Assembly: GCA_902728285.1 (NCBI GenBank)
Contig: CACVBU010001102.1
Span: 2,374,335-2,438,334 of the forward strand
Source of the DNA: Clytia hemisphaerica
Lineage: Eukaryota; Cnidaria; Hydrozoa; Leptothecata; Clytiidae
Direction of reading: 5' to 3'
DNA: 64,000 nucleotides
This document shows, piece after piece, positions 586 to 49,641 of this stretch. The notes under the pieces are model-generated. The model did not search any database, was not told the DNA's origin, and saw only the letters and a program-made list of their open reading frames with translations. The position numbers and the translations under genes are program-made. Every line of letters begins with the position of its first letter. Positions within the stretch are counted from its first letter, which is position 1.

Positions 586-3500
586 CTTTAAGTCAGAAGT
601 CTCATCGAAGATTGGATCGTGCATTGTAAACCAAGTCCGTCCCATCGTTTTCTCTTCAATATTGGAATAAAAACATTTCATGAAGACGTCACTTGCCACC
701 GGCAACGTCAAATTACAACACGTCGTTTGACCGATAGGGCAGGCTCCTTCCAGACTATCATAAAGCAATTGTAGATTAGCACAAGAAGGGCTGCGCTGAA
801 TGAATGGTGCTCTGATTAGGTTTTCACAAAAACCTTTTAACCAAGTTTGAACGTTGCCAAGGTCTAGAGGGCCGTCGTATAATTCAATAGTTCCGCGACT
901 GTCGGGATCAAAATGGTAGCCATTGTCGACGGCCTTTATACCGAACATGAACGACACGTGACGATCGTCTCCACCTGATCCCGAGCCTGATGCAAACAAC
1001 TTTTTGAGATTCAGATCATATTGCTCCAATGGGCTACCTGTTCAAATAGGAAAGAAAATATTGGTATTTAAAGTCATTCAATGCAAAATAGACTTCTTTC
1101 CAAGTCGAACCCAGGCCCTTAGCCCAATTTTTTATTGGTTCTTATAGCGCTCATGATTGTATATGATTTTATATACTGGATGGCGCTGATAAGTGGCCCA
1201 GTGTAATTTGGTAGACTTATTTTTTTGGCTTTGCTTGAGGTGTTAGCAAATACATGCCACTAGATCCAGTCCCTTTTTGGGGAAAAACAAATAGAAAACA
1301 ATGACCAAAGGATCGATTGTTTTCAATGTTAAGCAGAGCTAAGAGGTATTTTTTAGTTTTTATTATAGTCTCGTAAACTTTGATTGGATTTTAGAATATA
1401 TTTTAGTACTTTGATGTTTTCATATAATTTTTGAAAACGAAAGTGAAAAAATCCAATATGGCAATATCCTCTAGTCTATTCTAGTCTATTTCACTGGACT
1501 CGGCACTATCAAAATCATCAGGCAGCAAATTCAGTCAGAGGTAGACTCTAGTCTAGATTATAAAGCGTCCATTAGCACGTTGCTTTGGATACGAGATTGC
1601 TACGAATTTATTATATACCAAACACGTAACTTGTAACCAATCAACCACTTGTTGTAAAAGAAATGTGCTGACAGTCCTAGAACTGAACATGTCTTTTTTA
1701 TAAGACGTCAAAATTTTTTGAAGCCTTCAGATAGATGTTCTTAAATTTTTGACAGTTTTGAGCTTAAAAATGTTCTTATCATGTTCCTATTTTTATCCCT
1801 TTCTGAGTATTTTTGTTCATTTTCCTTAAGAAATTAGGTTTTAGAGTCTGCAAAGCCTTGAAAAAAGTCTTAACTTATCAATAGTAATTTGACCATCGAA
1901 ACCTTATGTTCTTATATAATTTGTTCTTATAAAAAACGTGTATTGTCTCTGCGATTATCAGCCATTGGTTCCACTAAAATAAGCTCGAAAATTATCAACT
2001 CATTTATAAGGATGGTGATATCAGGGGGAAAAACAGAACAAGGGAACAAAACTACACACCCCTGTCTCAATGACCCAGCGAAAACTTTCAGTACTATAAC
2101 AATGGAAAACCTCTTACCTTAAAATTACCCAATTTCCTTCTAACAGTGAAAAGTCAAGAGATAATCTAATCAGCTCACCTGACGTAAACATTTGAAATTC
2201 ACCAGTCGATGGTGGATTCAAACCAGGGCTTGAGAAAGTCACCACACAGCCACCGATACCCAGAGCTAACAAAAACACAATCCAAATCCAACGGAACTTG
2301 ATAATAGCTGTTGGTAAGTACTGACTGAAAATCGTGTTGGAGATATCATCTAAGTTCCTCTGCAATGCACTGACCCGTTGATGCTCCGCTGGTACCGCTG
2401 GATCTTTACAAGCTCCTGGGCACAATCTATTCATACATTTACCCAAATATTTTTCATGTAGAATCACCACAGCCGGGAATAACGTGATCATTAATAGATA
2501 ATTAATGATGATGGATGTACCAGCGAAAAGTCCAAAACATTTAACTGACGTCACCACACTGGAGACGTTAGCGTAAAAAGCGGAAGCCGTCGTTAGCGAC
2601 GTTACCAACATGGCGAGTAAGGCGTGTCGGATAGAATGAATTGTCCATTTTATCAAACACTCTTCATATATATACATGTTCAATGGATAGATTTGTCGCG
2701 CCTCGCCCCAGATCCCTGTATAAACAAACGCGTCATCAGCGCCAATTCCAACAATAAAGATAAGAGTGACCATGTTTAAGAATGGGAAAAAATTCATATC
2801 GAAGACACGCCCATAAACGAAATATGAAATAACCAAAGCGATGATGATACAAGCTAGTGTCATTAGCCCGATGAAAATAGAGCCGGAATAAAACCAGATA
2901 AATAAAATAACAAGCACGATAGCAGCAATGATATAGAGTGACTGTGTGATAATTTCCGTTTGGAAGAGATAAAATTTGAGATTCCACATATTGAAACCAG
3001 CTACTTGGACATCGCCAACTTTGACAGATTCGAGGTCTGTTAACCGGTCATTGTAAAGCGGTTCAAAAAAGCCAGAATCAGGATCCCGTAAATACCAAGT
3101 CAGCGAATCGATGCTTGCAGTATATTGAACATTGTCTAGATCGGAGTGTGATGCACTGTCGATTAAATAGTAGAAAGAGTTGTAAACGAGTCGTTTCATA
3201 CTGCTGGGTGTGTGGAGAGTTGTATTGTAGTGGCACATTTGTTTCACGTTTGTGCAGCCGAAAGCGTCGGTCGAATCAACACATGTTTTAAGTGTACCAT
3301 TCTTATAATACCCGTAACATTGCTTCAAAATGTTTTTGAAATGATCAACATGGTTTTCTTGTAGGGTATCACAATCCGGAAGATTGTTCAGAGCTGCAAT
3401 ATAGTTCGCCAAATGATGGGTCGAATCAGATTGTGTGTTAAAATATTCATCATATCGTGGATAGGATCTAAGGTATTTTTTATGTAATTTACATAGATTG

Positions 3501-5717
3501 TTTAGATTTTGCACAGTCAGTATATTTCCCGATGCTTTGTAAATGAAGTAAAAATCTGTATACAGTTTAGATGTTAAAGACAGACTGGTGCTACGTCGTT
3601 TCCGGGATGTTAAGCGCCCGGTATAATTGGTGCCCGGTACGTTAGTTAATTGGTAATCACCCCAACGGTTTTTATCGAGATTTGATAGTGCAGCAGCTCT
3701 TTTTGAGATATCGGTACCACGAGGTTCAAAACCCTGGAAAGAGCAAAAAAATAAACAACTTTGACGGCTTTCAATAACACTCAAAGTCGACTCTCTCGAG
3801 TTTGATTTAAGCGAGCGAAACAGAATTTCATTCGAACTACCTAGAGAAATATTCGAATGATGACTAGTGTTTGATGTACGGATTTCGAGCTAAGTGGACC
3901 AATGTTTTTGTTCGAATTACAGAAAAGTTCGAATTATATGAATACGATTCGATATACCTTTTAATAAAACCGTAGTTGCGCGGTCAGGCGCGTGCCACTT
4001 TATTATTTAATTTACCACCCTAAATCCTTTTTTTTACATATTTTTCTTTTGTCTATAGGTGTGAAAAAAGACTGGGACGGTTTGTTTAACTAATTATCTT
4101 TTAGTGCTACAATCGTGGTCAAAACTGGTGTCCACCAGTCCATCTTTTTCCATCGGCAAGTCGCCACTCTCCCCCCGAATCAATGTTAGAGATGAGACTC
4201 CCCCATCAACATTGATTTGGGGGAGGGGTAGACAAACATTTCTGTCCATGATTGCACTCTGTACCAGAGTGTATCTCATGTATAACTAGAATGAGTTTTG
4301 AAATTTTCATAGATATCGTGTCTTTTTACAGACAATCTTAGAATCTTAGTATGTACCTTGGTTGGTTCGGAGAAGTCTGGGAAATCTTTGGAACCGAGAG
4401 CTGGTATGACGGAAAGGATAATTGACCATGCAAAGACAAACAATACTGGTCCGATCACAAGTACGGGCCATCGCACCAAGAATCTGCAATACCTAGAATT
4501 TGAATAGATAGATTCGTGACATGTTCTTTCAACATCAATTGATGCAATCAAATTATAAGAATGACGTATTTCATTATGAATATTCATAACATTTTGGTAA
4601 AAATCATCCTGAAATATTCTTAAAGATATTCATTAGTTAGAATCCAAACCAAACCTAAATTTAACAAGGTACACTAAGCAAAAATATGGTGTTTTTGTGA
4701 ATGTTTTTAGCAAAAGGTGTGGATAATCACCCAATAAATGCTCCAAAACTGCACTAAAAATGACATTTGTTATGTTCAGTCGCCAAATTCCATGATGGTG
4801 TTATTCTAACCATATTCTAAATTTTGTAGCCAATTTCATCATGAATATTCGTATAGAGTAGATTCTTATGAAAAAAACCATATACGAAAACAAACTTGTT
4901 ATGACCGTCTTGCTAATTAATAAGTGTTAACCAAAATGCATTAGCAACATTTTGTAGCTTATTAAAAGAAACAGATTACTGAGCAACAAGACACAGGACA
5001 TAAGGTGTGAAGGGTAGAATCTAGAATTGGAAGCTTTTGGAGACCGTTACGATTTACCAAAACAAACTTTCTAATGCTCGTAGCACCCTAGAGGAAAGTC
5101 GTTAAGATTTCTATAATACATATAAGAGAAACTTTCTGCTATTAAGGAATTTCAAAGCCATCGAACCAAAGTATTTCTCTGGCATTACTTTAAGTATAAA
5201 GAGTAATATAAACCAATATGGTAGTAAAATTTGCTATCTTTGCACCCTTATGTCTTTAAGACGAATAATTTCAATTTTGAAAAGAGCGTAACCCCTTAGA
5301 AGCGCCGCACACAAAATCTTAAAAACTACAAGGCAACGCTGTCGTGCTCATCGGAGAAAATACGATAAAGGTAAAACGTAAAAAGATTTTAACAGCGGTC
5401 AGTATTAGTCACTGTAACTGGAAAACGCGCGGGGGATCGAAATTTGTTCGAGTTATGGAAATTTGGAGTTATTGAGACTGATATATAAGATATTGTTAGC
5501 TGAAGGGACCATATAGCTAGTTCGATTTACGGAGACATTTGAATCATAGAGGTTCAAGTTAAAGAAGCTCCATTGTACCGTCGTAGTACGTAATTAAAAA
5601 AATCATCTAGACTCACGGTCTTAATATACGTGCCACCGTGTCGTATTCTTCTTTACGCCGTATTTTCGCATGCGTATCTTCTTCCGTGTGTGGTGCTTGA
5701 GTTTTGTCTGCCATCAT
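586..5717 (-). CDS. disp: Dispatched homologue, 5' part (four exons; gene continues past the left edge)
   Basis: Exons on the minus strand: 5717-5617, 4492-4357, 3733-2179 and 1037-586. All introns are GT-AG, phases agree (2, 0, 1, 0), and 748 codons are visible. Dispatched is an RND-family membrane protein that exports lipid-modified Hedgehog from producing cells. Seen: two adjacent start codons (MMADK); first TM around residues 38-66; then GFEPRGT, a family hallmark; a large Cys-rich extracellular loop; and a sterol-sensing block of five TM segments with GIGADD in the fourth, the proton-relay motif of RND pumps. SPLEQYDL opens exon 4, the second extracellular loop. A dibasic RKRR lies near residue 123 in loop 1, where vertebrate DISP1 is cut by furin. 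The C-terminal half, including the second TM bundle, is outside the window. Introns hold repeats: 1688-1940 in the intron before exon 4, and TTCGA-rich sequence at 3780-4020. Confidence 0.93.
1688..1940. mobile_element. TA-flanked MITE, GTTCTTA family, decayed copy
   Basis: The right end is clear: GTTCTTATAAAAAACGTG followed by TA. The left end has decayed (CATGTCTTTTTTATAAGACG). The interior shares the repeated GTTCTTA words and AAGCCTT blocks of the copies at 17797 and 43772. It lies in the Dispatched intron before exon 4. Confidence 0.65.
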
Positions 5718-6659: not shown

Positions 6660-6717
6660 GTTGCTAGAATCTGATTGGATGCAATCGTTTGATTGCATCC
6701 AATCAGATTCTAGTAAC
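6660..6717. repeat. Near-perfect hairpin
   Basis: Arms 6665-6686 and 6691-6712 (TAGAATCTGATTGGATGCAATC and its complement) are perfect over 22 bp, with a 4-nt loop. Pairing extends outward with one mismatch. No gene is adjacent. It is probably a snapback element remnant. Confidence 0.85.
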
Positions 6718-7619: not shown

Positions 7620-8530
7620 TTTGCCAACCTACTGGCGGGTGCTTATTTTGTTGTGCTTGTGTCTCATTGATTAACCTTTCATTCCAATGCCCCAAAATCT
7701 CTAAAACCTTTACCATTAAGATCGTGAAATTTTATCCATTTGAGTAAATCTAATTCAGTGCTTGCTAGCCTTATGGCGGGTGCTAATTTTGTTGTGCTTG
7801 TCAGCCTTCTGGCGGGTTAACCTTTTACTCGGATGACCTAAAACTTATACAAATAAAATCATCCAATTTTTTCCATTTGAGTAAATGTAATTCAGTGCTT
7901 GCTAGCCTTATGGCGGGTGCTAATTTTGTTGTGCTTGTCAGCCTTCTAGCGGGTTAACCTTTTACTCGGATGACCTAAAACTTATACAAATAAAATCATC
8001 CAATTTTTTCCATTTGAGTAAATGTAATTCAGTGCTTGCTAGCCTTATGGCGGGTGCTAATTTTGGTGCGCTTGTCAGCCTTCTGGCGGGTTAACCTTTT
8101 ACTCGAATGACCTAAAACTTATACAAATACAATCATCCAATTATTTCCATTTGAGTAAATGTAATTCAGTGCTTGCTAGCCTTATGGCGGGTGCTAATTT
8201 TGTTGTGCTTGTCAGCCTTCTGGTGGGTTAACCTTTTACTCGGATGACCTAAAACTTATACAAATAAAATCATCCAATTTTTTCCATTTGAGTAAATGTA
8301 ATTCAGTGCTTGCTAGCCTTATGGCGGGTGCTAATTTTGTTGTGCTTGTCAGCCTTCTGGCGGGTTAACCTTTTACTCGAATGACCTAAAACTTATACAA
8401 ATAAAATAATCATCAATTTTTTTTCTATTTGAGTAAACGTAATTCAGTGCTTGCTAGCCTTATGGCGGGAGCTAATTTTGTTGTGCTTGTCAGCCTTCTG
8501 GCGGGTTATCCTTTTACTCGAATGACTTAA
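7620..8530. repeat. 137-bp minisatellite, about six units plus one diverged unit
   Basis: CTTGCTAGCCTTATGGCGGG recurs at about 7761, 7898, 8035, 8172, 8309 and 8450, that is every 137 bp (141 for the last step). A diverged unit lies upstream, near 7625. Each unit contains two related half-motifs, TTATGGCGGG and TTCTGGCGGG. Units differ at only a few sites, so the array was homogenised recently. It is not CRISPR, because there are no unique spacers. Confidence 0.9.
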
Positions 8531-8669
8531 AACATCATGTTTCGTCAGATTTGTTTGTTGTTTGTAAAATACGTAAGACATATTTGTATATTTTTTGTCC
8601 TTGCTTCAATTAAGATCAGGGTTACAAAAATCGAAGTTTCTTTGTCGTTCTCTCTTTTCCTTTTTTCAG

Positions 8670-12203: not shown

Positions 12204-12288
12204 AATTATAGGCATAACACAACAGTAGCTGTAATTACTAAACGCCAAAAAAAATAAGAATGCTCTCAGATTACGCTACAGGGTATTA

Positions 12289-12615
12289 CACGCTTTTTTA
12301 TAAGAATACACTTTATAAGAATGTCCATGATGAAAATGGCCAAAAAATTTAAGAATATGGTAAGAATATCACCATCATGGAATTTAGCAACTGAACCTAA
12401 GAAGGCATTTTTAATGCATAACCTGTAAATAACAATTTCGATCTTTTGGATTTTGGATTTACATAGCTGCTAAGTTCGGATTTGCAAAAATTGGACTCCT
12501 TAAAACTTGTTTTCTTTTTCTCAGCCTGAGCAGTTCCTTAACAATTCCTTTTTTTTTGGACCATTTTCAGCCTCGAGTTCCTTATAAACGTGTTCCTTAT
12601 TAAAAAAACAACGTG
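12289..12615. mobile_element. Chimeric TA-flanked MITE
   Basis: TA flanks are at 12287-12288 and 12616-12617. The left half (CACGCTTTTTTATAAGAATAC, with TAAGAAT words) belongs to the family at 18990-19331. The right half (GTTCCTTA words, ending CAACGTG) belongs to the family at 17699-18195. The right half includes the TTTACATAGCTGCTAAG site that is interrupted in the 17.7-kb copy. Confidence 0.7.
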
Positions 12616-12832
12616 TAATAAGAAACATTATATAAATATGTAGCCAACAATTTAATTTGATTTGACAATATATTTCGAAAACTGTGTTTCATTTTCAAGT
12701 CTAAGAAAGAAGAAAAACAAAATATGTAAAAATATATAGAAATCTATATAATATTTGTTGTAACAAACACATCATATCAAACATACATCTTACCCTTACA
12801 ATTACAAAGCATAACTGAAAAAAAATTCTATT

Positions 12833-15244
12833 TCACGTCAAATCAATCACAAGCGCCTTGCTCTTGTATTCGTTTTTAGTGTTTAACGACGGTTTAATTT
12901 CTTTTATCTTGATAGCCTCTAGGGTCATTAACTCAGCCTCTACGGAACGCATAGATGAATCTACAATGGAAACGTCATCTATTGTTAGAGTTTTATTGCA
13001 TCTACTAAAATGTGATCCTAAGATAATATAATAAGAAACACTCTCGTATTACAAGGTTATAACACACAAACATATAACATCATAAAACAAGAAAGGAGGA
13101 GAAACTGTATATCTATATAACATGAAAGAGAAAGATGGTAGATAAGAATCAAAACAAACATTAAAAAGTTGTTAAAACTCTTGTTCCTATAGCAACCCAG
13201 CAGAAGCTTTTAGAAAAAAGGATAGAATAAAAAGTAGAGCGTATATGCTTAAAAACAAACGTGTTTATGATTGTTTCGGCTGAACAACCAGGTCAGATCT
13301 TCACATTCGCCATATCCCTTTAGAGCATGTACACGTTTTTTTATAAGAACATCCAAAATTTTTGAAGCTTTCGGATGTTCTTAACTTTTTTATATTGAAG
13401 CCTAAAAATGTTCTTAACATGTTCTTATTTTCACCATCTTTTGAGTATTTTTGTTCATTTTCCTATGAAATTCAGTGTTTTGAGTCCGCAAAGCCTTATG
13501 TTCTTATTTAGTTTGCTCTTATAAGAAAATAAACATAAAATGAATTAGAAGTTGAAAATAATTATCAGTTTCAGTTTCTGTGAAAAAGTTCCTTTTTCTA
13601 AACGGGCTTTTTAAAGGAACATCATATTATGGCGTTTAGCGTTTACAACTGGTCACAATATTCAGATGTACATAATGAGAGTCATGAATTCTCTTAATGA
13701 TATCTAGTTTAATCCTCTTTTTGGAAGGTGTGATTTTTTTTCCCTCATTCATTCAAAAATTAACAATATCAGGCTGAGCGCTTACGTTATCAAAACTTTC
13801 TTGGCATTTTTTAGAACTCTGAGACGTCTTTTTATACATTTGTCTAAGGAGTCTTATCGGCAGCCAGTAGCATCGTAGCAGTGGGGGAGGCAGATTCCCC
13901 CAGCGGACGATTTTTTCGGGGGGAGGGGAGACTAAACAAGGCGCCTCCGATTGCTAAAGTCTCCACAATGATGCACCTTTGCTTTTTTAATCAGAAAAAA
14001 GGAAGAGGGGCGCCGGAATACCAATTTTGGAAATTTGCCTCACCAAGTTACCCCATTTCGGTCGGCCCATCACATTAACTTTAGTTAGGTCTGTGCTTCG
14101 AAGCCTATGAAAGTGAGTGAAGCTATTTTACCTGCAACAGTGTTCATAGTCTTCTCTACCACGACCATATTAAAACAACAAGAAACATTTGGTTTGACAT
14201 CATCGGATATAAACTAAGGCATTATTCTAATCAGAAATTTTGGATGAATCAAGATGAACCAGTTTATATATTGTATTTAACTTTCGAAAGAGTATTCAAA
14301 ACAAAATTATAAAACAACAAAATTTTGATCAATTTCTCAGAAACGATTTTTTTCAATTTTTCCGCTTTAAACAAGACGAGGGGATACGGAACAAATACAA
14401 CACATGGAACAAGAATTAGAAAAGTTCTTCTCAAAAACCTTACTTACTAACAAACACAAACACTCGTATGTAACTTTCAAACTTCAGAAAGAAATCCCAA
14501 AAATATATATCCTTCATCACACATAACATTTAAATGGGAAAATGATTCATTAAAAAAATTTTTTTTTTCCAAGTTTTTCTCGCATATCCATGTAAAAAAT
14601 ACAAAGCAAGAGGGGAAAACTAAGATTAAAAAAATCTGATACGCAATACAAAAAAGTCAAGAAATCCAAAGCCAAAAAAATGACCGATCATTTTCTTTGT
14701 AAGTAATAACAAACTATCTTGCATATATATTAGCTTTCTAACGTATTACTTTTTTTCTCGCGGTTTCTTTCTATTCGACAAGCGACAATATAACTCGGCC
14801 AACTGAAAATATGTTGAGACAAACTTAAATATATAGAAAAGATAAATTATTTACGATGAAAGTTCTTCATTTAGAATTAATGATATTGACACCATCAGTA
14901 GTAACAGTTAAGAAGAACTGAAATGTTTTTTTAGTCTAAAATATTTTATTTTTGCGGCAATTTTTTCAAATAAGAAAATGCAAATCGAAATTTTATTTCA
15001 ACGGCTGGTCCGACATAAATTAAAAACTACCAACAGTCGAAAGTACTAGGCAGTTAGTCACACTAGCGTCCCAACAAAGTGTGTATCAAAGATTAATGCT
15101 GCGAAAGTGCTATATCGTTTACTTGTTTTGCAAGCAAAAGAAAAAATGCGCCGCAAAACTTCACTTTTTAATGAAAATGACATTTTCAAAAACAATGAGA
15201 AATTACCTAAAATTTGGGCTATAGATGAAAAAACTTGACCCAAC
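12833..15244 (-). CDS. 3' end of an unidentified multi-exon gene
   Basis: Candidate exons on the minus strand: 15244-15207, 14481-14448, 14213-14132 and 13017-12833 (stop TGA at 12835-12833). All have AG/GT borders and phases agree, giving about 112 codons. The last exon is the most convincing: 61 codons with ordinary codon usage, beginning TCTTAG/GATCAC. The 14213-14132 exon ends TTGCAG/GTAAAA. The two upstream exons are short and could be coincidental. The protein has a Cys-containing stretch (YECLCLLF, VSCCFN), then a charged C-terminus ending VIDLT. No family is recognised. The intron 13018-14131 holds a GTTCTTA-family MITE and, at 13860-14080, a GC-rich repeat. Confidence 0.45.
13332..13535. 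mobile_element. TA-flanked MITE, GTTCTTA family
   Basis: Left end CACGTTTTTTTATAAGAAC follows TA. Interior words GTTCTTA and AAGCCTT match the family. The right end has decayed (CTCTTATAAGAAAATAAACAT). Slightly deleted relative to the 251-253-bp copies. Confidence 0.7.
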
Positions 15245-16696: not shown

Positions 16697-17698
16697 AAAA
16701 AAATATTGATTGACATTCAAACACATTCAACCACTTTTGGATTCAACTTTACTCATGTGCACATTCAACTTTTTTTGTACTTTGCCGGTATCTTGTTTTA
16801 CCAACTTTCTCGAGTTACGACCATATGATGGTCTTTAAAGCTCAAGAAGCTCTATAAACAATAAAGCTAGTTATTAATATATCTAATAACAGACATAAAG
16901 ATAAATTACAGTTTGAACAAAAATATCAAATGTACATTTGAAAACTTGGGCAAACTTCTTTAAAGATTCCAGAAAAAGCATTGAAATCATTGCTGAAATG
17001 AACTTCTGACTAAATTACAGTATTTAGTATTCAGTTTGAAAGACAAGAAACAAAATTTGACATACAAAACACTTTTTCCAGTCAATGAATCAGCTCATCA
17101 TCATAACCAGTCTGCCATTTTGTTTGTTTTGATTTGCACAAGTAATATTGTAATTCGTGTTATGGTGTAATCACTATACTTTTTCTATATTTGCATTTAT
17201 AACACTCGCTTCAGCTTTTCAATGCTAAATCGAAACTAATAAAATGTAATACGCAATAATGGTAATAGCATATAACGTAATATGAAAATATGTATAACAT
17301 TTACCGCTGTATAATTTACCGCCATATTTTTGCGGAACACTTAATTGGCCGGAAAGCCGATTACGACGCAAACACAAAAACAAAAACAATTCGCAAAAAA
17401 TCGAGATTCCAGTCCAATATATTGCGTGAAGCTATGAGTGCCTCCTCAGTCGCTGCGCTCCTTGCGGGGGCAATAATTGAGGCGGGAATTAAGTGACAAA
17501 ATTTGGTTGGTTGATTAGCTGGCTGCTGCACGCTAGCAATTGGTCTTTTTAGTTTTCAAGTTTTAATTAATTGTCTTAAGATCTCCACTGAGGCCTAAAA
17601 TTTCTTTACAAGACACGTTCCTCGTGTGGTTTTCACTAAACATCGTAACTAAGATATGCAAGCTTACTGTATTTCGAAAAATATACTACACGTTTTTC
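16697..17698. other. Non-coding stretch
   Basis: Mostly AT-rich sequence. At 17370-17496 a GC-richer piece (GCCTCCTCAGTCGCTGCGCTCC) is open in one frame but has no splice context and no recognised family. I regard it as repeat-derived. Confidence 0.3.
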
Positions 17699-18195
17699 TT
17701 TTATAAGGAACCTTAACTTTGCTCTGAGCCTGGAGTTCCTTATTTTTACAGAGAATTTCAGCCTCAAAGTTCCTTATCGAGTTCCTTATTTACATACAGG
17801 TATTTTTTTTATAAGAACGTCAAAAATTTTCGAAGCCTTCGGATGTTCTTAGTTTTTTGGATTTGAAACCTAAAAATGTTCTTAAAATGTTCTTATTTTC
17901 AGCATTTTTTGAGCATTTTGATGTAATTTCTTAAGAAAATGCATGTTTTTAAGTCTCCAAAGCCTTAGAATGTTCTTAGAATGTTCTTAAATTTTTGGGC
18001 CTCGAAGCCTTGTGTTCTTATATAGTTTGTTCTTATAAAAAAAAACGTGTAGCTGCTAAGTTTGGATAACCATCTCTTACTGTTCCTTAAAACTTGTTTT
18101 CTTATTCTCAGCAGCAGTTCCTTAACAATTCCTTTTTTTTTGGACCACTTTCAGCCTCGAGTTCCTTATAAACGTGTTCCTTATAAAAAAACGTG
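17699..18195. mobile_element. TA-flanked MITE, GTTCCTTA family, interrupted by another MITE
   Basis: The element begins CACGTTTTTCTTTTATAAGGAAC and ends GTTCCTTATAAAAAAACGTG, with TA on both sides. Without the insertion at 17797-18049 it is about 242 bp. GTTCCTTA occurs about seven times inside, in one orientation. Confidence 0.8.
17797..18049. mobile_element. TA-flanked MITE, GTTCTTA family, inserted in the GTTCCTTA element
   Basis: The 253-bp copy is nearly identical to the one at 43772-44022. Its insertion duplicated a TA in the host element. The unoccupied sequence TTTACATAGCTGCTAAG is preserved at about 12457-12475. Confidence 0.88.
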
Positions 18196-18989
18196 TACTC
18201 AAAAAGTCATTGCAATCATAGACTAGAGTCAACTTCTGGCTGAACTTTGCTTTTTGATGATTTTTGATGACGCTGAGTCCAGTGAAGTAGACTAGGAGCA
18301 TTTGGCGAGGTCGCCATTTTGAAAAAGAATGTTTAAAATCCAAGTAACAAAAAGACTACTTGGAGTTGAAAGATATAATCAAAAAAGAGAAACAAACATC
18401 AATAACAGATTTGCAATCCCTTATTCTCAAATAAAAACATTGCTTCATACTGTTTTTATCTTCCAAAAACAACTAAAATCTGGCGGCGCCTAAGCAAAAG
18501 CATATTACCATATACTACCGGGCCACTTAATCGCGCCATCCAGTCTATCAAAAAGCTTTAAGTGGACCCCGGGCTATTGCAATCACAGAATGATTCACTC
18601 CAGAAAACTACCTAAATAATAATAAGACACTCAAAGAATCAAGAAGATCAAAAGAGAGACTTAAAACTAACTTAAAATCACCTGTATCCTAAGAAACTTC
18701 TGTAGAAAAATCAAAAAATCAATCTAAAGTTTGTACAGTACCATTAAGGAAACCACAGTAACAAATTAAAGATTTCCAAATGACTCCACTCAAGTCTAAA
18801 GTGTTTCAGAGTGTTTCAAGTGCACTTAAACTATGAGATTTCTCGATTTCTCTTTTACAAGAAACGATTATTCACGGATAATTAATTCTCCCCTTAGAGA
18901 CATCGTTAATATTATTGGCTATTAAAGATTTTAAAATTAATTACTGATTGTAATTTAATGAAAGAATGACGTCGACGATCATGACTGTA

Positions 18990-19331
18990 CACGCTTTTTT
19001 TATAAGAATACACTTTATAAGAATGTCCATGAAAATGGCCAAAAAATTAAGAATAATGCTAAGAATATCACCATCATGGAATTTTGCTACTTAAGCTAAG
19101 AATGCCATTTTTAGAGCATTTTCAATTATAAATTGTCAATTACCCCCAAGTAAGTCTCACTTTTTTCACGAAAATGCCATTTTAGGCTTGAGACGTATGT
19201 ACTAAATATTAAATCTAGTCTGAATTAGGATCCTAACCTAAGAATGCTGTAAGAATATTTTAGGATGATATTCCCAAAACAGTTAAGATTATCCAAGATG
19301 AAATAGATTTACACCATATAAAAAAGGCGTG
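18990..19331. mobile_element. TA-flanked MITE, TAAGAAT family
   Basis: Left end CACGCTTTTTTTATAAGAATAC after TA; right end ATATAAAAAAGGCGTG before TA. TAAGAAT occurs seven times, all in the same orientation. Length 342 bp, non-coding. Related pieces lie at 12289-12420 and, inverted, at about 4740-4830 in a Dispatched intron. Confidence 0.78.
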
Positions 19332-19392
19332 TATTCGAAGCCTGCTTTATTTTTCAAAACTATATTTTGAACTAGCAGTTAAAGAACGCATA

Positions 19393-19648
19393 CACGTTTT
19401 CACTTTATAAGAACATCCAAGGTTTTGAAGCCTTTGAGTGTTCTTAACTTTTTGGGTTTTGAGCCTAAAAATGTTCTTAACATGTTCTTATTTTCACCAA
19501 TTTTTGACCATTTTTACCCATTTTCTTAAGAAATCGAGTGTTTTTGAGTCTATAAAGCCTTAAAATGTTCTTAACTTGTTTGTTCTTAACATTTTGGCCG
19601 TCGAAGCCTTTTATGTTCTTATATAGTTTGTTCTTATAAAAAAACACA
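19393..19648. mobile_element. TA-flanked MITE, GTTCTTA family
   Basis: Starts CACGTTTTCACTTTATAAGAACATCC after TA. Ends GTTCTTATAAAAAAACACACA (decayed CGTG). Same interior blocks as the other copies of the family. Confidence 0.75.
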
Positions 19649-20470: not shown

Positions 20471-20472
20471 TA

Positions 20473-21180
20473 CATGTTTTTTTTTATAAGCAAGTGTCGG
20501 CCCCTACATCAGGCTCGCATTATGCTTAGCATTCTATTGTTCTCAAACAATAGAGCCTATTTGTTACTGCCGTTAGACAGTAGTTTTTGTTATATTAGTT
20601 TTATGTTTCCTTTGTATCATAGCATTTGAATTATGTATAGGTATAATTGGTTTGTAATCATATTTTGATGTCCCTTATGTATTAATTATATGATAATTAT
20701 GTATTATCATTAGGAATGTTTTGTCCTTTGTGTATTGTTAACGTTTCGTAAGTCTCATGGGAGTCTTGTCTACCGTTCTGTATGTTATAAATGTTTGTGT
20801 GTAATGTTGGATCACTTATTGTAAGCTGTGTTTATGTACGTTATGGTGTGAGGTGACAGTGTTTTTAGTAAGTGATATAATTTTGATTTTCTTGTACATA
20901 TTCTCTGTTACCTTTTTCTGTACCAAGGCTTAGATTTATACCATTTCTTGTGTTATCTAATTTGCGATGAGCTTTTTCTTGACATTGAATTTGTGTTTAT
21001 TTTATAGCCGTTACTTATCAGAAGAACGCGTCGAAAACCTACTCACCTAAATGTCTCTGTCCATGAGTTTGGCCTACGGCATTTACACTATTGTTCTCAA
21101 ACAATAGAGCCATTGTTTAGGTATAAAAAACTGAGCCTGCATATGCTTATAAACGTTATGCTTATAAAAGAAAAAACATG
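20473..21180. mobile_element. TA-flanked MITE, CATG family, itself interrupted
   Basis: Same ends as the copy at 425-575, with TA at 20471-20472 and 21181-21182. It is inserted in the zinc finger of LINE A ORF1. Its middle is split by 530 bp bounded by a 24-bp direct repeat. Confidence 0.85.
20558..21087. mobile_element. 530-bp insertion within the CATG-family MITE
   Basis: It is bounded by two copies of a 24-bp sequence (20534-20557 and 21088-21111) that is single in the 425-575 copy. That 24-mer contains the CTATTGTT/AACAATAG hairpin. The insert is T/G-rich on the plus strand, lacks inverted ends and has no clear poly-A tail. A long target duplication fits a retroposed or 5'-truncated LINE-like insert, but the identity is unknown. 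Confidence 0.7.
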
Positions 21181-21182
21181 TA

Positions 21183-27121: not shown

Positions 27122-27276
27122 GTATTACGCACGCGAAGCGAGAACGAAAATTTTGAGGTATTTTCTCTATTTTTGGGCGAAAACTGCCAATTCTGAGGCG
27201 TCTTTTTGCGCCCTTTGTATTTCGCCACCACGCTACTGGTTACGTAAAAATAGAGTAATAATCGACCATTTCATTA

Positions 27277-27528
27277 CACGTTTTTTAATAAGAACAAACT
27301 ATATAAGAACATAAGGCTTCGATGGCCAAATTGTTACGAATAAGTTAAGAACATTTTAAGGCTTTGGGAACTCTAAAACACCCTATTTCTTAGGAAAATG
27401 AACAACATTGCTCAAAAAATGGTGAAAATAAAAACATAGTAAGAACATTTTTTAGGCTTAAAACTTAAAACGTTAAGAACATTTGAAGGCTTCAAAAACT
27501 TTGGATGTTCTTATGAAAAAAAACGTTG
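27277..27528. mobile_element. TA-flanked MITE, GTTCTTA family, inverted copy
   Basis: TACACGTTTTTTAATAAGAACAAAC at the left and GTTCTTATGAAAAAAAACGTTG at the right. The interior reads as the reverse complement of the other copies (TAAGAAC words). Confidence 0.75.
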
Positions 27529-27906
27529 AAAGCGTCGAAGCTTTGATTGTATGAAAGCCCCAAAGCGCGCTTAAGGTGTCCAGTTTTTAATTTTTTTTTG
27601 CACACAAAAAAACAACAAAAGAAATGTTTTGATCACCTTCTTCATCATGTTGTGCACCATGTTGGTAATTCAACGGTGTTTTAACACCAACCTCCATGAT
27701 GATGTACTTTCCAACTTAACACGGACTGATTAAAATGATGACACCGGGGGACCTCTGTTATTTGACCTGAAAGCAAACAAAAAAAACATTTAGTCGGGGA
27801 AAACTTTGGCCGTAAATCACCACCCGCTCAAACTTTTAGGGCTTTTAGAGATGTTTAGGTGTAGCTGAAAACATTTTTTAGTACTTTACCGCATTTAAGA
27901 ACATTA

Positions 27907-36171: not shown

Positions 36172-36957
36172 ACCAAAGTCAAGTTAGCGACACATTCAGC
36201 GACACATTCAGCGACACTTTCGCTTTCAGCGACACTTTCAGCGACACATTCGAATACTTTTGTATTTTTCATGCTGAAGGAGAGGATTCCTATTCTGGAA
36301 ATTGGTATTCCTATCAAGCCTCATTTGTTAGCTATAAATTACACCAAAAATGAAGTTCTAAAAGCGTTTCCTCTTTTCAGAACACGTTCGAATAAATGCC
36401 TCATTGGAAATCTCGGAATACTCATTTTGGGCATTATGGCCTGAATTCGCACCAAAACAATGAATTCCTATCCCGGAAACTTGTATTCCTATCAAGCCTC
36501 ATCTCTTAACTATAAATTACACCAAAAATGAAGTTCTAAAAGTGTTTCTTCTTTTCAGGACACGTTCGAAAAGATGCCTCATTGGAAATCTCGGAATACT
36601 CATTTTGGGCATTATGGCCTGATTTCGCACCAAAACAATGGATTCCTATCCTGGAAACTTCTATTCCTATCAATTCATATTTATTAGCTACAAATTACAT
36701 CAAAAATGAAGTTCTAAAAGCGTTTTCTCTTTTCAGGACACGTTCGAATAGATGCCTCATTGGAAATCTCGGAATACTCATTTTGGGCATTATGTCCTAA
36801 TTTGGCACCAAAACAATGGATTCCTATCCTGGAAACTTCTATTCCTATCAAGCTGTATTTATTAGCTACAAATTACACCAAAAATGAAGTTCTAAAACCG
36901 TTTCCTCTTTTCAGAACACGTTTGGATAGATGTCGCGTTGAAAAAATCGAAATACTT
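36172..36957. repeat. Left arm of foldback: 12-bp array plus about four 178-bp units
   Basis: The 12-bp units occupy 36186-36252. The 178-bp units recur near 36285, 36462, 36641 and 36819 (ATTCCTATC(C/T)(C/T)GGAAAC..., then TCTTTTCAG(A/G)ACACGTT). The last unit is partial. Confidence 0.9.
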
Positions 36958-40814: not shown

Positions 40815-42134
40815 CAAATACCCAAAATGAGTATTCCGAGTTTTCAAACGCGACATCTATCCAAACGTGTTCTGAAAAGAGGAAACGCTTTTAGAACTTC
40901 ATTTTTGATGTAATTTGTAGCTACAATCAAGGTCATAATATTTGAGAAAAAAGGGAAATACACCGGGAAGTTTTTGAACCACAAGCGATTTGTAAGTGCT
41001 CTAAAGTTGGTTGGAAGGGTAGAGTTTTAACTCTGAGTTTTAACATGAGACTTAAGACTTAGTACCTTAGGATCTTAGCATTCAAAAGTTCAAAAATAGT
41101 CCAATAAGGCTCAGAATATAGCCTGTAAGTCTGCCAACCCCTCCCGAATTGAAATGTTCGATGAAATTAAAGAGATAGCCCAAAATCGACTTTCTCGCCT
41201 GAACTTTAAATCTTGAAAAACGTTAAAATAACCAAAATTATCAAAATATTATGACCTTGATTGTAATAAATAAAACTTGATAGGAATAGGTGTTTCCAGG
41301 ATAGGAATCCATTGTTTTGGTGCGAAATCAGGCCATAATGCCCAAAATGAGTATTCCGAGATTTCCAATGAGGCATCTATTTGAACGTGTCCTGAAAAGA
41401 GGAAACGCTTTTAGAACTTCATTTTTGGTGTAATTTATAGCTAACAGATGAGGCTTGATAGGAATACAAGTTTCCAGGATAGGAATCCATTGTTTTGGTG
41501 CGAAATCAGGCCATAATGGCCAAAATGAGTATTCCGAGATTTCCAATGAGGCATCTATTCGAACGTGTCCTGAAAAGAGGAAACGCTTTTAGAACTTTAT
41601 TTTTAGTGTAATTTATAGCTAACAGATGAGGCTTGATAGGAATACAAGTTTCCAGGATAGGAATCCATTGTTTTGGTGCGAAATCAGGCCATAATGGCCA
41701 AAATGAGTATTCCGAGATTTCCAATGAGGCATCTATTCGAACGTGTCCTGAAAAGAGGAAACGCTTTTAGAACTTCATTTTTAGTGTAATTTATAGCTAA
41801 CAGATGAGGCTTGATAGGAATACAAGTTTCCAGGATAGGAATCCATTGTTTTGGTGCGAAATCAGGCCATAATGCTCAAAATGAGTATTCCGAGATTTCC
41901 AATGAGGCATCTATTCGAACGTGTCCTGAAAAGAGGAAACGCTTTTAGAACTTCATTTTTGGTGTAATTTATAGCTAACAGATGAGGCTTGATAGGAATA
42001 CCAATTTCCAGAATAGGAATCCTCTCCTTCAGCATGAAAAATACAAAAGAATTCGAATGTGTCGCTGAAAGTGTCGCTGAAAGCGAAAGTGTCGCTGAAT
42101 GTGTCGCTGAATGTGTCGCTAACTTGACTTTGGT
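40815..42134. repeat. Right arm of foldback: about six inverse 178-bp units plus 12-bp array
   Basis: Units recur near 41296, 41474, 41652, 41830 and 42009, with a partial inner unit at 40818-40923 that pairs with the inner end of the left arm. The 12-bp array (GTGTCGCTGAA) runs 42054-42120. The innermost unit is split by the 40924-41263 element. Confidence 0.9.
40924..41263. mobile_element. TA-flanked element inside the foldback arm
   Basis: Ends CAATCAAGGTCATAATATTT and AATATTATGACCTTGATTG are inverse. TA is duplicated (40922-40923, 41264-41265). Sister repeat units carry the empty site (GTAGCTAATAAA-like). Length 340 bp, non-coding. Confidence 0.82.
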
Positions 42135-43451: not shown

Positions 43452-43771
43452 GTTATATTCATGCAATAAGAAAGCCTACAATTTAACTAAGAAATTTTAT
43501 AGAAAAACAAATCACAAAAGCCTCCAATTAAAAAAGGGATATTTAATCAAATTTCTTTTGTTAGCATTGTATTGCAACATATTGCAGTTTTACACAGTAG
43601 AGCTAAGTAGGGGATTTGGGATACATGATCCTGTATATAACTCTGCAAATATTTTATAGATAACTAAAAGAAATCTACTTTTAAAAGATTTTAAAAGTGC
43701 AAAACTTCTGGGTACTGTAAACCTCAAAATCCAGCAGATATTTTACCCTCAGGTTTTTGTTAAGATGATTA

Positions 43772-44022
43772 CACGTTTTTTTTTATAAGAACGTCAAACA
43801 TTTTCAAAGCCTTCGGATGTTCTTAGTTTTTTGGATTTGAAGCCTAAAAATGTTCTTAAAATGTTCTTATTTTCAGCATTTTTTGAGCATTTTGATGTAA
43901 TTTCTTAAGAAAATGCATGTTTTTAAGTCTCCAAAGCCTTAGAATGTTCTTAGAATGTTCTTAAATTTTTGGGCCTCGAAGCCTTATGTTCTTATATAGT
44001 TTGTTCTTATAAAAAAAACGTG
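43772..44022. mobile_element. TA-flanked MITE, GTTCTTA family, well-preserved copy
   Basis: CACG plus nine T plus ATAAGAAC at the left, GTTCTTATAAAAAAAACGTG at the right, TA on both sides. GTTCTTA occurs seven times in one orientation within 251 bp. It differs from the 17797 copy at only a few positions. It lies downstream of the 198-residue gene. Confidence 0.9.
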
Positions 44023-44421
44023 TATTTATCTATAAAATTGATAATAATGATAACAATATATCCATTATTTAAGTCCATTAGCTTCAATTGGGCTCTCTTT
44101 TAAGCTACCCTGAAAACCACTCTCAAAATGGACTTTAAAAATATACATGTATGCAGGTGTATGTGCTTGTTTTTCATCATTCATTAGTAATGTTTATTTT
44201 TGTAAACAAATTTGTTTAGAATGATCAGATATATTATAAAGATGTATATATTTTACAGAAACTTTAATTAGTGTTTCACAATGATATTTTTATGACTCCT
44301 GACATTTTTTTGTCATATAAACCTTTCTGAAAAGAATTTTGGAAACCAGATAACTGGCGAAAATTCTTTTTGAATATATAGAATTTCTGATGAAGATAAA
44401 ATCCATAGTCTCATTATTTCG

Positions 44422-46003
44422 GAGGCCCGGAAAACCCGAGTTACAAAAACTCGAGTTACAAAAACCCGAGTTACAAAAACCCGAGTTACGACGAATATGA
44501 CGTCACAAGTCTCAAATTATGAAGTCATAAGTGGGCTTTTTAACTCGAAAAAGTTTTTTACTGTTGTTTTGTAACTCGAAATTTTTTTTTTTTAATATGT
44601 TTTAGAGTTACGTAACTCGAAAATAAATTTTAAATTTCATTTTTCGAGTTACGTAACTTGAAATTGTAGTACATTATTTGAACTTTCGAGTTATCTTCAG
44701 GTGAAACCAAGTCGGCCAAAAATTCTAGAATTCATATTATTAATAAATATACACCATTTCTTTCGAGAGAAGAATCAATAGATCTGATTAGAATAGAAAC
44801 TTGTCAAAAGATTTAATTTACAATAGAATAAAAGAGCAGGCGTCATAAACATGATTTTGAACAATCAGAAAATATTTCAAGCAACCTTCTAAACATTTAT
44901 TTTAAAACGATTACAATTCATTATATTACTTTTGTACATTGCGCAATCGAGAATCTTTTCAACGAAATATGTATTGTGTTTTTTATAAGAACATCTAAAA
45001 ATTCAAAGCCTTCGGATCTTTAGCTTTTTTAGTTGAGCCTTAAAATTTTCTTAAAATGTTTCTATTTCACTAGGTGAGTATTTTCTGCAATTTTATAAGA
45101 AATTAGGTGTTTTTGAGTCGATAAGAGGAATGTTAAGAAATGATCTTAACTTATTGTTACTATTTTAGCCCTCGAAACCTTCTGTTCTCGTATGGTTTAT
45201 TCTTAAAAAATGTGTGAAAAACCTAAAGAAACTACAAGTTCTATCGAAGTTTTTAGTTTTTAGCGAAAGGACAATGAATTTGAATTTAACAAATATAGAT
45301 TGTGGAATACAAAATTTTAGTCTACTTCACCCAACAAAACCTTCAGAAATTCCCATCAAAATTAGACTAGCAAGCGTCTGTCTTTCCTTGGACACAGGAA
45401 CGCGGGAATAGTGCTTATATAATAAAGAGTTCTTATAAAATATAGAAATTGCCGCGGGAGAGTGGATTGGAAAGACAGAAAACATATAAAAAAATAGATC
45501 CCATTGAAAGTTTAATCTGCAGCGAAATACAACGACGTGGTTTACTAGTCTACATCAAAATAGACGTATATAAGTCTCAAGAAAATAACAGAAAATTAAA
45601 TTGTTTACTGTCCCTTTCAATTTTATTCCCTTCCTCTCTACTTTTAGTTTTATAGATCAAAATCCCCATTCGTAAACAAAAAGAAAAAAAGCGCTTTTTA
45701 GAATTTTTGGCCAACTTGGTTGCGCTTTAACATAACTCGAAATATTTTTTAAAAATTTCGTTTTAGAGTTACGTAACTCGAAAAATAAAATTTAAAAGTT
45801 ATTTTCGAGTTACGTAACTCTAAAACAAAATTTTAAAAAAATATTTCGAGTTACAAAACATTAGTAAATAACTTTTTCGAGTTAAGAAGTCCCCTTATGA
45901 CGTCATAATTTGAAACTTATGACGTCACATTCGTCGTAACTCGGGTTTTTGTAACTCGGGTTTTTGTAACTCGAGTTTTTGTAACTCGGGTTTTCCGGGC
46001 CTC
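44422..46003. mobile_element. Second foldback-type element, 9-bp target duplication
   Basis: ATTATTTCG is duplicated at 44413-44421 and 46004-46012. The ends start GAGGCCCGGAAAACCCGAGT, then tandem 15-bp GAGTTACAAAAACCC units (four on each side), then TGACGTCA-containing and AGTTACGTAACT palindromes, all mirrored at the other end over about 280 bp. The interior holds a GTTCTTA-family MITE. No transposase is seen. Confidence 0.87.
44973..45215. mobile_element. TA-flanked MITE, GTTCTTA family, decayed
   Basis: TATTGTGTTTTTTATAAGAACATC at the left and TTTATTCTTAAAAAATGTGTG at the right. Diverged interior with AAGCCTTCGG. Nested in the 44422-46003 element. Confidence 0.6.
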
Positions 46004-46052
46004 ATTATTTCGTTAGTTCTTGACAATCTGTCTGAAAAATCAAATTGAGGTA

Positions 46053-46324
46053 CACGCTTTTTTTTTATAAGAATAGTTTACTTTGGATGGGGACAAGCTG
46101 GAGGTTTTACAAGCTCTTATTTGATTTGGTTGGTCGTTAAGATGTAATAAAAAGAATCCTATTACTTTTTCTAAAGAACGCGTCATCTCTATCACTTTAA
46201 ATGACCAATTAGTGAAGTATCTTGTAAAAACTCCAAGGCATCTCTTTGGATGAGGGTCAAGTTTTCTTGACTAATTTTCACCCTGATATTCTTATATAGA
46301 AGATATTCTTAGAAAAAAAGCGTG
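46053..46324. mobile_element. TA-flanked MITE, third type of interior
   Basis: CACGC plus a T-run plus ATAAGAATAG at the left, ATTCTTAGAAAAAAAGCGTG at the right, TA on both sides. The interior (CAAGCTCTTATTTGATTTGG) is shared, inverted, with the first 60 bases of the window. Confidence 0.8.
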
Positions 46325-46621
46325 TAGTTTCAGTTGAGATAAGCTATCATAATTAGACTGATTACCAGCGTTACCAGTAATAACCTGCTAATTATTTAAG
46401 TGAATTAAAACCTGCTATTGTTGTTACCAAAATTAAAGTTGAGGGTATCAAAACAGGACGGGATGGAAATTCATTAGCACCCAATTAATACCCTGAGTAT
46501 CAGAGGTTGAGTTTTCAAAGACCATATCAACCTCTGAGGACAGAAAAGAAAGTTTATCGCGCATGTGTCAATCTAATCACTGTTTTTTGTTTGTTTTTTT
46601 GAACCTACCTCCGGGTATTAA

Positions 46622-46978
46622 TGGGATAAATTTTCGCGGGGATTAAATTTCGCGGTTGAGCTCATCCGCGAAATTTTAAGATTTCGCGGGGATTAATTTT
46701 CGCGGATGGCACTATTGGGGGGGGGCTTTATTTTCTCGATTTTGTGACTTTTACTGTCAAATCATGCATATTGGTTGTTGAAATACACATTATTTCATTA
46801 TTTGCGCCTCTTTGATGCAAGTAACCATTCGAATAGTATTTATTTGACATATTTTGAGTTTTGTTTAGAAATATTTCGCGGACGGGCCTTTTTCAAATTT
46901 CCAACGGGACTTACTTTCGCGGATGATACCCAAATCCGCCAAATCCGCGAAAATTAATCCCCGCGAAAATTTATCCCA
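46622..46978. mobile_element. Inverted-repeat element rich in TTTTCGCGG
   Basis: TGGGATAAATTTTCGCGGGG and its inverse close the element. TTAA lies immediately outside both (46618-46621, 46979-46982), but inverse homology continues further out (ACCTCC...GGAGGT), so TTAA may not be the duplication. Related partial copies lie at 36958-37210 and 57778-58046. Confidence 0.65.
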
Positions 46979-47017
46979 TTAAAGTACCCCGGTGGAGGTC
47001 CTAAGAATTAACCGTTG

Positions 47018-49309: not shown

Positions 49310-49437
49310 CGAAATTTTGGGAGCAGTGGAATGTAGCTAGCCGTGGAATGTCTTTTTTTTTTACTTGACCTCTACCAAACCTTTTTAAACAGATAAAAAT
49401 GACAACTTGAAAAATATTTTAGGCTGACATGTATGCT

Positions 49438-49511
49438 CACGTTATGCTTAGGAATTCTGCAAATCTGAGCCTTCATAAGCTTATAAGCGTTATGCTTATA
49501 AAAAAAACATG
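49438..49511. mobile_element. CATG-family MITE, partial copy
   Basis: Ends GTTATGCTTATAAAAAAAACATG followed by TA. The interior has TTATGCTTAGG and GAGCCT(G/T)CAT as in the copies at 425 and 20473. The central hairpin is deleted. Confidence 0.7.
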
Positions 49512-49641
49512 TATGCACCAATGATATCTTAATGGACCACTTCAAAATGACTGAAGCATTGTAACATTTTTGCAAGTCCATGGTTCTTCAGTACTCATTT
49601 TTTAGAAAATGTAGAAAATATGAAATATAATTATTATCCTA

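Follow-up and report, generated by a model that had tools for sequence, protein, structure and literature searches.

The window analysed here, a stretch of 64,000 nucleotides from the hydrozoan Clytia hemisphaerica (contig CACVBU010001102.1, positions 2,374,335 to 2,438,334), encodes Patched/sterol-sensing, von Willebrand A and reverse transcriptase domains and contains 15 copies or large remnants of short, gene-less elements at 14 places, two of the copies being fused. The elements fall into four families, which are referred to as AAC, AAT, GAAC and CA after the tags given in an earlier reading made from the letters alone (the sequence-only reading). The part at 17699–19648 holds GAAC_1, AAC_3 nested in GAAC_1, AAT_2 and AAC_4. 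The outer ends have a common layout (CAYG, a T-run and ATAAG), inside which one word is arrayed in one orientation. The end bearing a double word, with a spacing of 15 bp, was defined as the right end; in elements oriented in this way the interior word reads GTTCTTA (AAC), ATTCTTA (AAT), GTTCCTTA (GAAC) or ATGCTTA (CA), and the left end, where it survives, carries the word of the family inverted. The termini are CACG in the AAC, AAT and GAAC families and CATG in CA copies wherever an end is recognisable; CACTC termini are present on further copies in the genome. The fuller copies without inserts measure 155–346 bp and end in TACAYG...CRTGTA, several copies having one end worn or lost. With their short length, terminal inverted repeats and lack of coding capacity, the elements have the features of miniature inverted-repeat transposable elements (MITEs). 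A tag-independent right-end pattern, CTTATA-N9-CTTATAAA-N(0-14)-CRTGTA, was matched eight times in the window and in none of 100 shuffles. The observation made in the sequence-only reading is thereby confirmed; the ends are, however, not the mirror images that had been described, the second word lying 15 bp inside the first at one end only.

GAAC_1 (17687–18197, plus strand, tag GTTCCTTA, TA at both ends) contains, without its insert, seven sense words and one inverted word at the left end. The insert AAC_3 (17795–18051, plus strand, 257 bp, GTTCTTA) lies at a TA of GAAC_1 and shows seven sense words and one inverted terminal word, and the same 7+1 count was obtained for AAC_4 (19391–19648, plus strand, GTTCTTA; right terminus altered to ..CACA) and for the intact copy AAC_6 (43770–44024, plus strand). 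AAT_2 (18988–19333, minus strand, ATTCTTA) has seven sense words, no antisense word and the longest central region. Sense plus antisense counts for the other AAC copies were 5+1 (AAC_5), 4+1 (AAC_2), 4+0 (AAC_1) and 0+1 (the decayed AAC_7); those for the other families were 4+0 in the half element AAT_1, 1+2 in AAT_3, 3+0 in GAAC_2 (also a half), and 2+1, 3+0 and 2+0 in CA_1, CA_2 and CA_3, respectively. The single orientation that had been claimed for the words is borne out by these counts. Six or seven sense words, said to occur in each of the first three families, were present in five of the 12 elements of the AAC, AAT and GAAC families, and not in the remainder.

Interior words were counted once the outermost 25 bp on the left and 40 bp on the right had been removed, and each element was compared with 2000 dinucleotide shuffles. 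The interior count was reached by no shuffle for AAC_2 to AAC_6, AAT_2 and GAAC_1, and by 6, 2 and 1 of 2000 for AAC_1, AAT_1 and GAAC_2, respectively. The excess was not significant in AAC_7 (2000 of 2000 shuffles) or in AAT_3 (230 of 2000), the latter because its interior consists of another repeat, about 155 bp long; the description of AAT_3 as an element without interior words was dropped, given that its interior belongs to that other repeat. GTTCTTA occurs at a density of 11.7 per kb inside the elements and 0.17 per kb outside, and GTTCCTTA was found 11 times inside elements and nowhere outside them. The existence of repeated tag words in the better AAC, AAT and GAAC copies is confirmed by the shuffles, by which a chance origin was rejected for these three families and not for the interior words of the CA family. 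Derivation of the words from a degenerate open reading frame (ORF), which the sequence-only reading had named as a possible refutation, was also rejected: in five of five elements the words lie in all three frames, and stops are present in all six. A foldback or hairpin reading was put aside on the grounds of the one-orientation words; no folding was computed.

Insertion at TA is documented directly at one locus. Sequence that is uninterrupted in GAAC_2 (TTTACATAGCTGCTAAG at 12458) is present in GAAC_1 as TTTACA-TA-[CAGG...CGTG]-TA-GCTGCTAAG at 17795–18051, the empty-site form in the paralogue at 12458 being TTTACA-TA-GCTGCTAAG. This one direct case proves that the insertion of AAC_3 into GAAC_1 duplicated TA, as expected of the TA-targeting transposon group that had been proposed; in other copies the TA at the ends is consistent with a duplication and is indistinguishable from a terminal base. 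The duplication also agrees with the Tc1/mariner group, to which it is not exclusive. It differs from that of ISL2EU elements (AT within AATT; PMC4482050) and from the TTAA duplication of the piggyBac MITE group CMITE. AAC_3, which starts with TACAGG, is 98.0% identical to AAC_6 (250/255), and the AAC end TTTTTATAAGAAC was matched 13,913 times in the 417-Mb assembly, as opposed to 260 matches for the reversed control. Both results agree with the recent activity that had been ascribed to the AAC family.

The positions of the words were measured on 12 of the 15 elements (all except AAC_7, AAT_3 and CA_2), with the CTTA core required to be exact and one mismatch tolerated in the tag. Common positions were obtained for the AAC, GAAC and AAT families, at about +49, +83 and +94 from the left end and at about -110, -73, -62, -30 and -15 from the right end, some sites being absent. 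The words of AAC_6 lie at 49, 82 and 93 from the left and at 117 (a one-mismatch match), 72, 61, 30 and 15 from the right; the corresponding values are 49, 83 and 95 and 108, 93, 73, 29 and 14 for GAAC_1, and 42, 76 and 87 and 109, 72, 60, 30 and 15 for AAT_2, and AAT_1 shows words at 111, 74, 63, 29 and 14 from the right. Part of this grid is also carried by the CA family (CA_3: 63, 30 and 15 from the right; CA_1: 51 from the left, 97 and 30 from the right). Coincidences between families were counted within 130 bp of the right end at a tolerance of 2 bp and compared with 3000 random placements. As descriptive figures, 103 of 197 words coincided across families (random mean 29.2, maximum 51), as did 70 of 150 when the outermost word was left out (mean 19.6, maximum 35) and 28 of 102 when words within 45 bp of the right end were disregarded (mean 11.6, maximum 26). 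Whole-element alignments were scored against 60 letter-shuffled versions, and gave 157 versus 59.3 (sd 7.6) for GAAC_1 and AAC_6, 147.5 versus 74.7 (sd 8.3) for AAT_2 and AAC_6, and 120.5 versus 60.0 (sd 7.4) for GAAC_1 and AAT_2. The simplest reading of these data would be a single ancestral scaffold on which the tag has been exchanged at most sites.

Whether the two words of a right end carry the same tag was examined genome-wide with exact patterns. Double words of the GTT–GTT type were found 2,584 times (control 0) and those of the ATT–ATT type 1,657 times (control 53), whereas mixed GTT–ATT double words numbered 142 (control 3). The exact AAC spacer TATAGTTT is present in 53 of the 100 mixed matches listed, and many of the mixed double words resemble AAC copies in which a single base has mutated. 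Together with the grid, the matched and mixed double words uphold the earlier claim that the tag changes together in ends and interior. They also bear on the notion that a host transcription or chromatin factor binds the array and drives or silences the elements. Such a factor is conceivable insofar as the words are short and AT-rich and sequence cannot distinguish a host protein from a transposon protein; it would leave unexplained why the same word stands in the terminal repeats and changes there too, and why several tags occur on one scaffold in one genome, and we regard it as very improbable.

Among seven aligned AAC copies, 326 of 348 letters were conserved in the site columns (93.7%), compared with 977 of 1147 elsewhere (85.2%), and when seven 7-bp blocks were placed at random, 114 of 20,000 placements reached the conservation of the sites. 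This degree of conservation is not expected if the words are passive, that is, if the ancestor was enlarged by duplications in place of its own end, if the families were homogenised by slippage, gene conversion among copies or repeated rebuilding of MITEs from their ends, and if the terminal word alone is used. The same positions across tag families despite diverged spacers, and the single orientation of the words although both ends could have served as source, likewise speak against such a history. It would account for the frequent pairing of sites 11–12 or 15 bp apart, for a similar AGCCT-containing stretch before several sites (seen by eye), as in duplicated units, and for the small number of interior words in CA elements. 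On balance we consider passive words unlikely.

The elements are probably MITE-like, non-autonomous DNA transposons that target TA and derive from a single scaffold, the word array being the putative recognition site of a family-specific transposase or of an element-encoded DNA-binding protein. The model builds on the TA duplication (one case), the array, the shared grid, the tags matched within elements and the high copy number, and is patterned on the role ascribed to site arrays in other transposons (PMC11707139; PMC2613891). A transposase or an element-encoded partner protein would bind each word and load cooperatively along the array, in one orientation; the loaded array would then pair the two asymmetric ends, and the conserved outer end (CAYG, T-run, ATAAG) would be the cleavage site. 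When a new family arises, the specificity of the protein would shift and the sites of its elements would follow, and families in one genome would therefore be largely separate in their mobilisation. Of the sequence-only reading's array of binding sites for a family-specific transposase, the repetition, the orientation and the tag matching were found, and the binding role itself is inferred.

Several points weigh against this interpretation. GAAC_1 has no word near -62 and carries one at -93 that is absent from the other AAC, AAT and GAAC elements; the coincidence test counts related copies as independent; and the common grid is explicable by shared descent alone. Mixed pairs were counted in one direction and for one combination of tags, which only one base separates, and the definition of the conserved sites on one aligned AAC copy introduces a slight bias in their favour. 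For the CA family, in which a weaker version of the repetition had been claimed, the interior excess was not significant, the counts of CA_1, CA_2 and CA_3 being reached by 103, 314 and 79 of 2000 shuffles, respectively. An extra subterminal site in piggyBat lowers activity (PMC11707139), and an array therefore need not help transposition. At the loci examined, most of which had 1.5-kb flanks, matching ends were not seen to enclose any transposase gene; larger source elements would have escaped.

A further step, which we put forward tentatively, would be that one lineage has given rise within one animal genome to several mutually separate families by exchange of a three-to-four-base tag in concert at nearly all of seven to nine sites, with the positions kept, and that the families form a natural series of orthogonal transposase–end pairs. 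The simultaneous change of a transposase and of many binding sites is, as far as we know, an open problem. With tag variants at the same positions in thousands of copies in one genome, the order of site switching and the mobility of mixed elements could be read from the copies, and naming the transposase would place a high-copy group that is not classifiable by its ends alone.

The genome was searched for transposase domains. DDE_3 gave 115 matches, and none of 30 loci with 1.5-kb flanks, 10 of them in one array, had matching ends; Transposase_21 gave 106 matches (0 of 30 loci, 1.5-kb flanks) and DDE_1 gave 77 (0 of 5 stretches). In none of seven larger Transposase_21 stretches, L120–L126, were such ends seen to enclose the gene. 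Neither the mariner assignment made in the sequence-only reading nor the transposase gene with matching ends for which it had suggested a search was established at the DDE_3, Transposase_21 and DDE_1 loci examined. DDE_3 genes follow one another regularly at about 4 kb on G000 C625, C353, C254, C248, C61, C491 and C924, as in tandem arrays of whole units.

One possible origin is an EnSpm/CACTA-type element with Transposase_21 and a TNPA-like second protein that would bind the words. It is in keeping with the CACG termini in three of the four families and the CACTC termini of further genome copies, with duplications of 2–4 bp in the CMC group (PMC4482050), with the CTTA core of the words (the En-1 motif is said to share TCTTA with the soybean motifs, in which one half is GC-rich and the other AT-rich; PMC2613891), and with the 106 Transposase_21 matches, two loci of which have arrays of another word upstream of the gene. 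A subterminal array of one motif, as in EnSpm/CACTA elements, is present here and is also seen in other superfamilies. Locus L123 has, about 2.8 kb upstream of a Transposase_21 domain, an end of the CA type that faces the gene (TACATG with ATAAGCAT and an altered second word; TACATGTTTTTTTATAAGCATCGCACTTAGAAGCAT, reverse complement near 227); this end lies, however, outside the block shared with the sister copy L124, no opposite end was seen, and a larger stretch of L124 contained no CA-type end. The CATG ends of the CA family do not fit this origin either. At the near-identical loci L125 and L126 the gene stands between a CA-type end and an ATT double word, both of which face away from it, and animal relatives of CACTA have been reported with CCC termini and 2-bp duplications (PMC1636069).

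Three Transposase_21 copies with CA-type words next to the gene (L108/L120, L114/L121 and L115/L122) were rejected as source, as comparison of copies puts their end at TA-CACTGTG about 400 bp further out. Because these copies begin there, the CA-type words in L120–L122 are assigned to an insertion. L121 (near 7525) and L122 (reverse complement, near 6708) also hold a short element with a TACACG end and a further tag, TTAAGAAAC, which is shortened in L121. An AAC-like element is present near the gene of L100/L101. Stretches with two AAC-type ends 0.7–3.1 kb apart (L127–L129) contained no ORF of more than 110 aa; no profile search was made on them.

A pogo/Tc1-like origin, from DDE_1 or some other element of the Tc1/mariner group bearing these ends, is a possibility of about the same weight, each of the two being less likely than not. 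The TA duplication is as expected, and the 77 DDE_1 matches include a young family, represented by L130 and L131, the right end of which stops at TA and carries TTAGAGGA at distances of 162, 130 and 34 bp from the tip, never inverted, with a fourth copy in the ORF; at a further locus (L133) TCGCTAA is present five times in 200 bp, again never inverted. The excess of repeated 8-mers is nevertheless modest, with 35 of 1000 (L130) and 24 of 1000 (L133) shuffles as high, and the ends under study were absent from all five DDE_1 stretches and, within 1.5 kb, from all 30 DDE_3 loci. The young DDE_1 transposon gave ten equal-score matches, nine with an open frame of 509–511 aa and one with 470 aa; L130 and L131 are 99.96% identical over 2,371 bp.

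Several transposon groups of this genome have repeated words close to their ends or genes, and the statement that ordinary elements do not show them was too strong: they were also found in an element with a 9-bp duplication, at two DDE_1 genes and at two Transposase_21 loci. What is particular to the present group is that the tag has been exchanged while the grid stayed fixed, in elements some 250 bp long. The element with the 9-bp duplication (ATTATTTCG) lies in the window at 44422–46003, has long inverted ends (GAGGCCCGGAAAACCCGAGTTAC...) and GAGTTAC repeated through both of them, and is Mutator-like by duplication length only. At L091 and L097, five to six GTTCGAAAAA/GCTCGAAAAA units stand in a repeat of about 30 bp upstream of a Transposase_21 gene, GTTCGAAAAA never being inverted. 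A further inverted-repeat element at 46618–46982 has ends that repeat GGGATTAATTTTCGCG-type and GGGATTAA/TTTCGCG words.

The remaining AAC copies of the window are AAC_1 (1686–1942, plus strand; an older copy with a diverged left terminus), AAC_2 (13330–13530, plus; internal deletion, right terminus lost), AAC_5 (27275–27532, minus) and the decayed AAC_7 (44968–45217, plus), which stands between the arms of the 44422–46003 element. The fused pair at 12287–12617 consists of AAT_1 (about 12287–12466, minus) joined to GAAC_2 (about 12454–12617, plus); both ends of this hybrid are double-word ends, of different families (AAT and GAAC), that face outwards, with TA at both ends. In AAT_3 (46051–46326) AAT-type ends surround the unrelated high-copy repeat of about 155 bp mentioned above (46090–46246), for which 39 further places at 93–98% identity were scored out of 2,596 genome candidates. 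The CA family is represented by CA_1 (423–577, plus; ATGCTTA, termini TACATG...CATGTA), by CA_2 (20471–21182, plus) and by CA_3 (49380–49513, plus), the right part of an element whose left end was not recognised, with a one-mismatch word 11 bp further in than its words at -63, -30 and -15. A 24-bp sequence of which CA_1 has one copy (486) occurs twice in CA_2 (20534 and 21088); the roughly 530 bp that interrupt CA_2 between these two copies look like an insertion with a long duplication. Five decayed fragments were detected by profile at 4747, 10865, 11824, 32612 and 55850 (E 5e-18 to 3e-5). The window also contains a 178-bp tandem repeat in two arrays (36284–36932 and 41276–42022), the consensus units of which appear to be on opposite strands, and a 137-bp tandem repeat at 7728–8533.

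Relatives were sought in other sequence collections. In viral contigs the 27-bp AAC end had no match, the double-word pattern had five matches, judged by eye to be due to chance, and for the 24 matches of the left-end pattern no partner end lay within 700 bp. A blastn search with AAC_6 against phages returned one match (E 0.8), and one with the end from L012 against plasmids returned 12 (E 0.8 to 10). The double-word pattern was matched 22 times in the collection of genome contigs; 21 of these matches appear to be fortuitous, and the remaining one, L012, also fits outside the pattern. This contig, binned in the Desulfobacteraceae metagenome-assembled genome Bpl_22, carries bacterial genes according to its ORFs and stops 49 bp inside an apparent right end of the present superfamily with a fifth tag, TACACGTTTTTTTTATAAGAAAGTGGTTTATAAGAAAGTAG (4370–4418). 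Because the 143 bp before the element end (4226–4368) are AT-rich, with a GC content of 0.27 versus 0.45, an assembly chimera and a genuine insertion in a bacterium are equally likely.

Among papers in PMC under Creative Commons (CC) licences, nothing in print on this group was found and the terminus sequence was not found in any paper text, precedents for subterminal arrays being present. The MITEs of the Tc1/mariner group (Stowaway and pogo-derived) resemble the present elements in being short and gene-less, in their TA duplication and in their high copy number; they differ in that the present termini are not tied to a transposase. To our knowledge, neither an array of the terminal word along the element nor tag families on one scaffold occur in them. 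The target of piggyBac is TTAA, unlike the TA used here, and the termini of piggyBac and piggyBat differ from the present ones. Several copies of the recognition motif at defined distances from the tip are nevertheless shared with piggyBat, and several transposons need arrays of transposase sites for the pairing of their ends (PMC11707139). A term search of a survey of pogo elements found the word ‘subterminal’ nowhere in it (PMC7325037). The coral CMITE group is likewise an animal MITE group with a conserved interior and families with different terminal repeats; it differs in its TTAA duplication and CCC termini (PMC2872659), and is not known to have an interior built of the terminal tag.

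The plant CACTA elements (En/Spm and Tgm) and their deletion derivatives combine short terminal repeats with many copies of one subterminal motif, as do the elements described here, and the terminal CAC is found in three of the four present families. TNPA of Spm/En recognises the subterminal repeats, which differ between CACTA families, and the duplication in Tgmt* is 3 bp (ATA), unlike the 2-bp TA found here (PMC2613891). The present elements also differ in that no Transposase_21 gene enclosed by their ends was found at the loci examined, in that the tag is part of the terminal repeat as well, and in that the words follow a fixed grid through an element of 250 bp. Subterminal arrays as such are already known; tag families that share one grid of positions in short elements of an animal genome were not met with in the CC-licensed papers searched, and in this respect the present group appears to be new.

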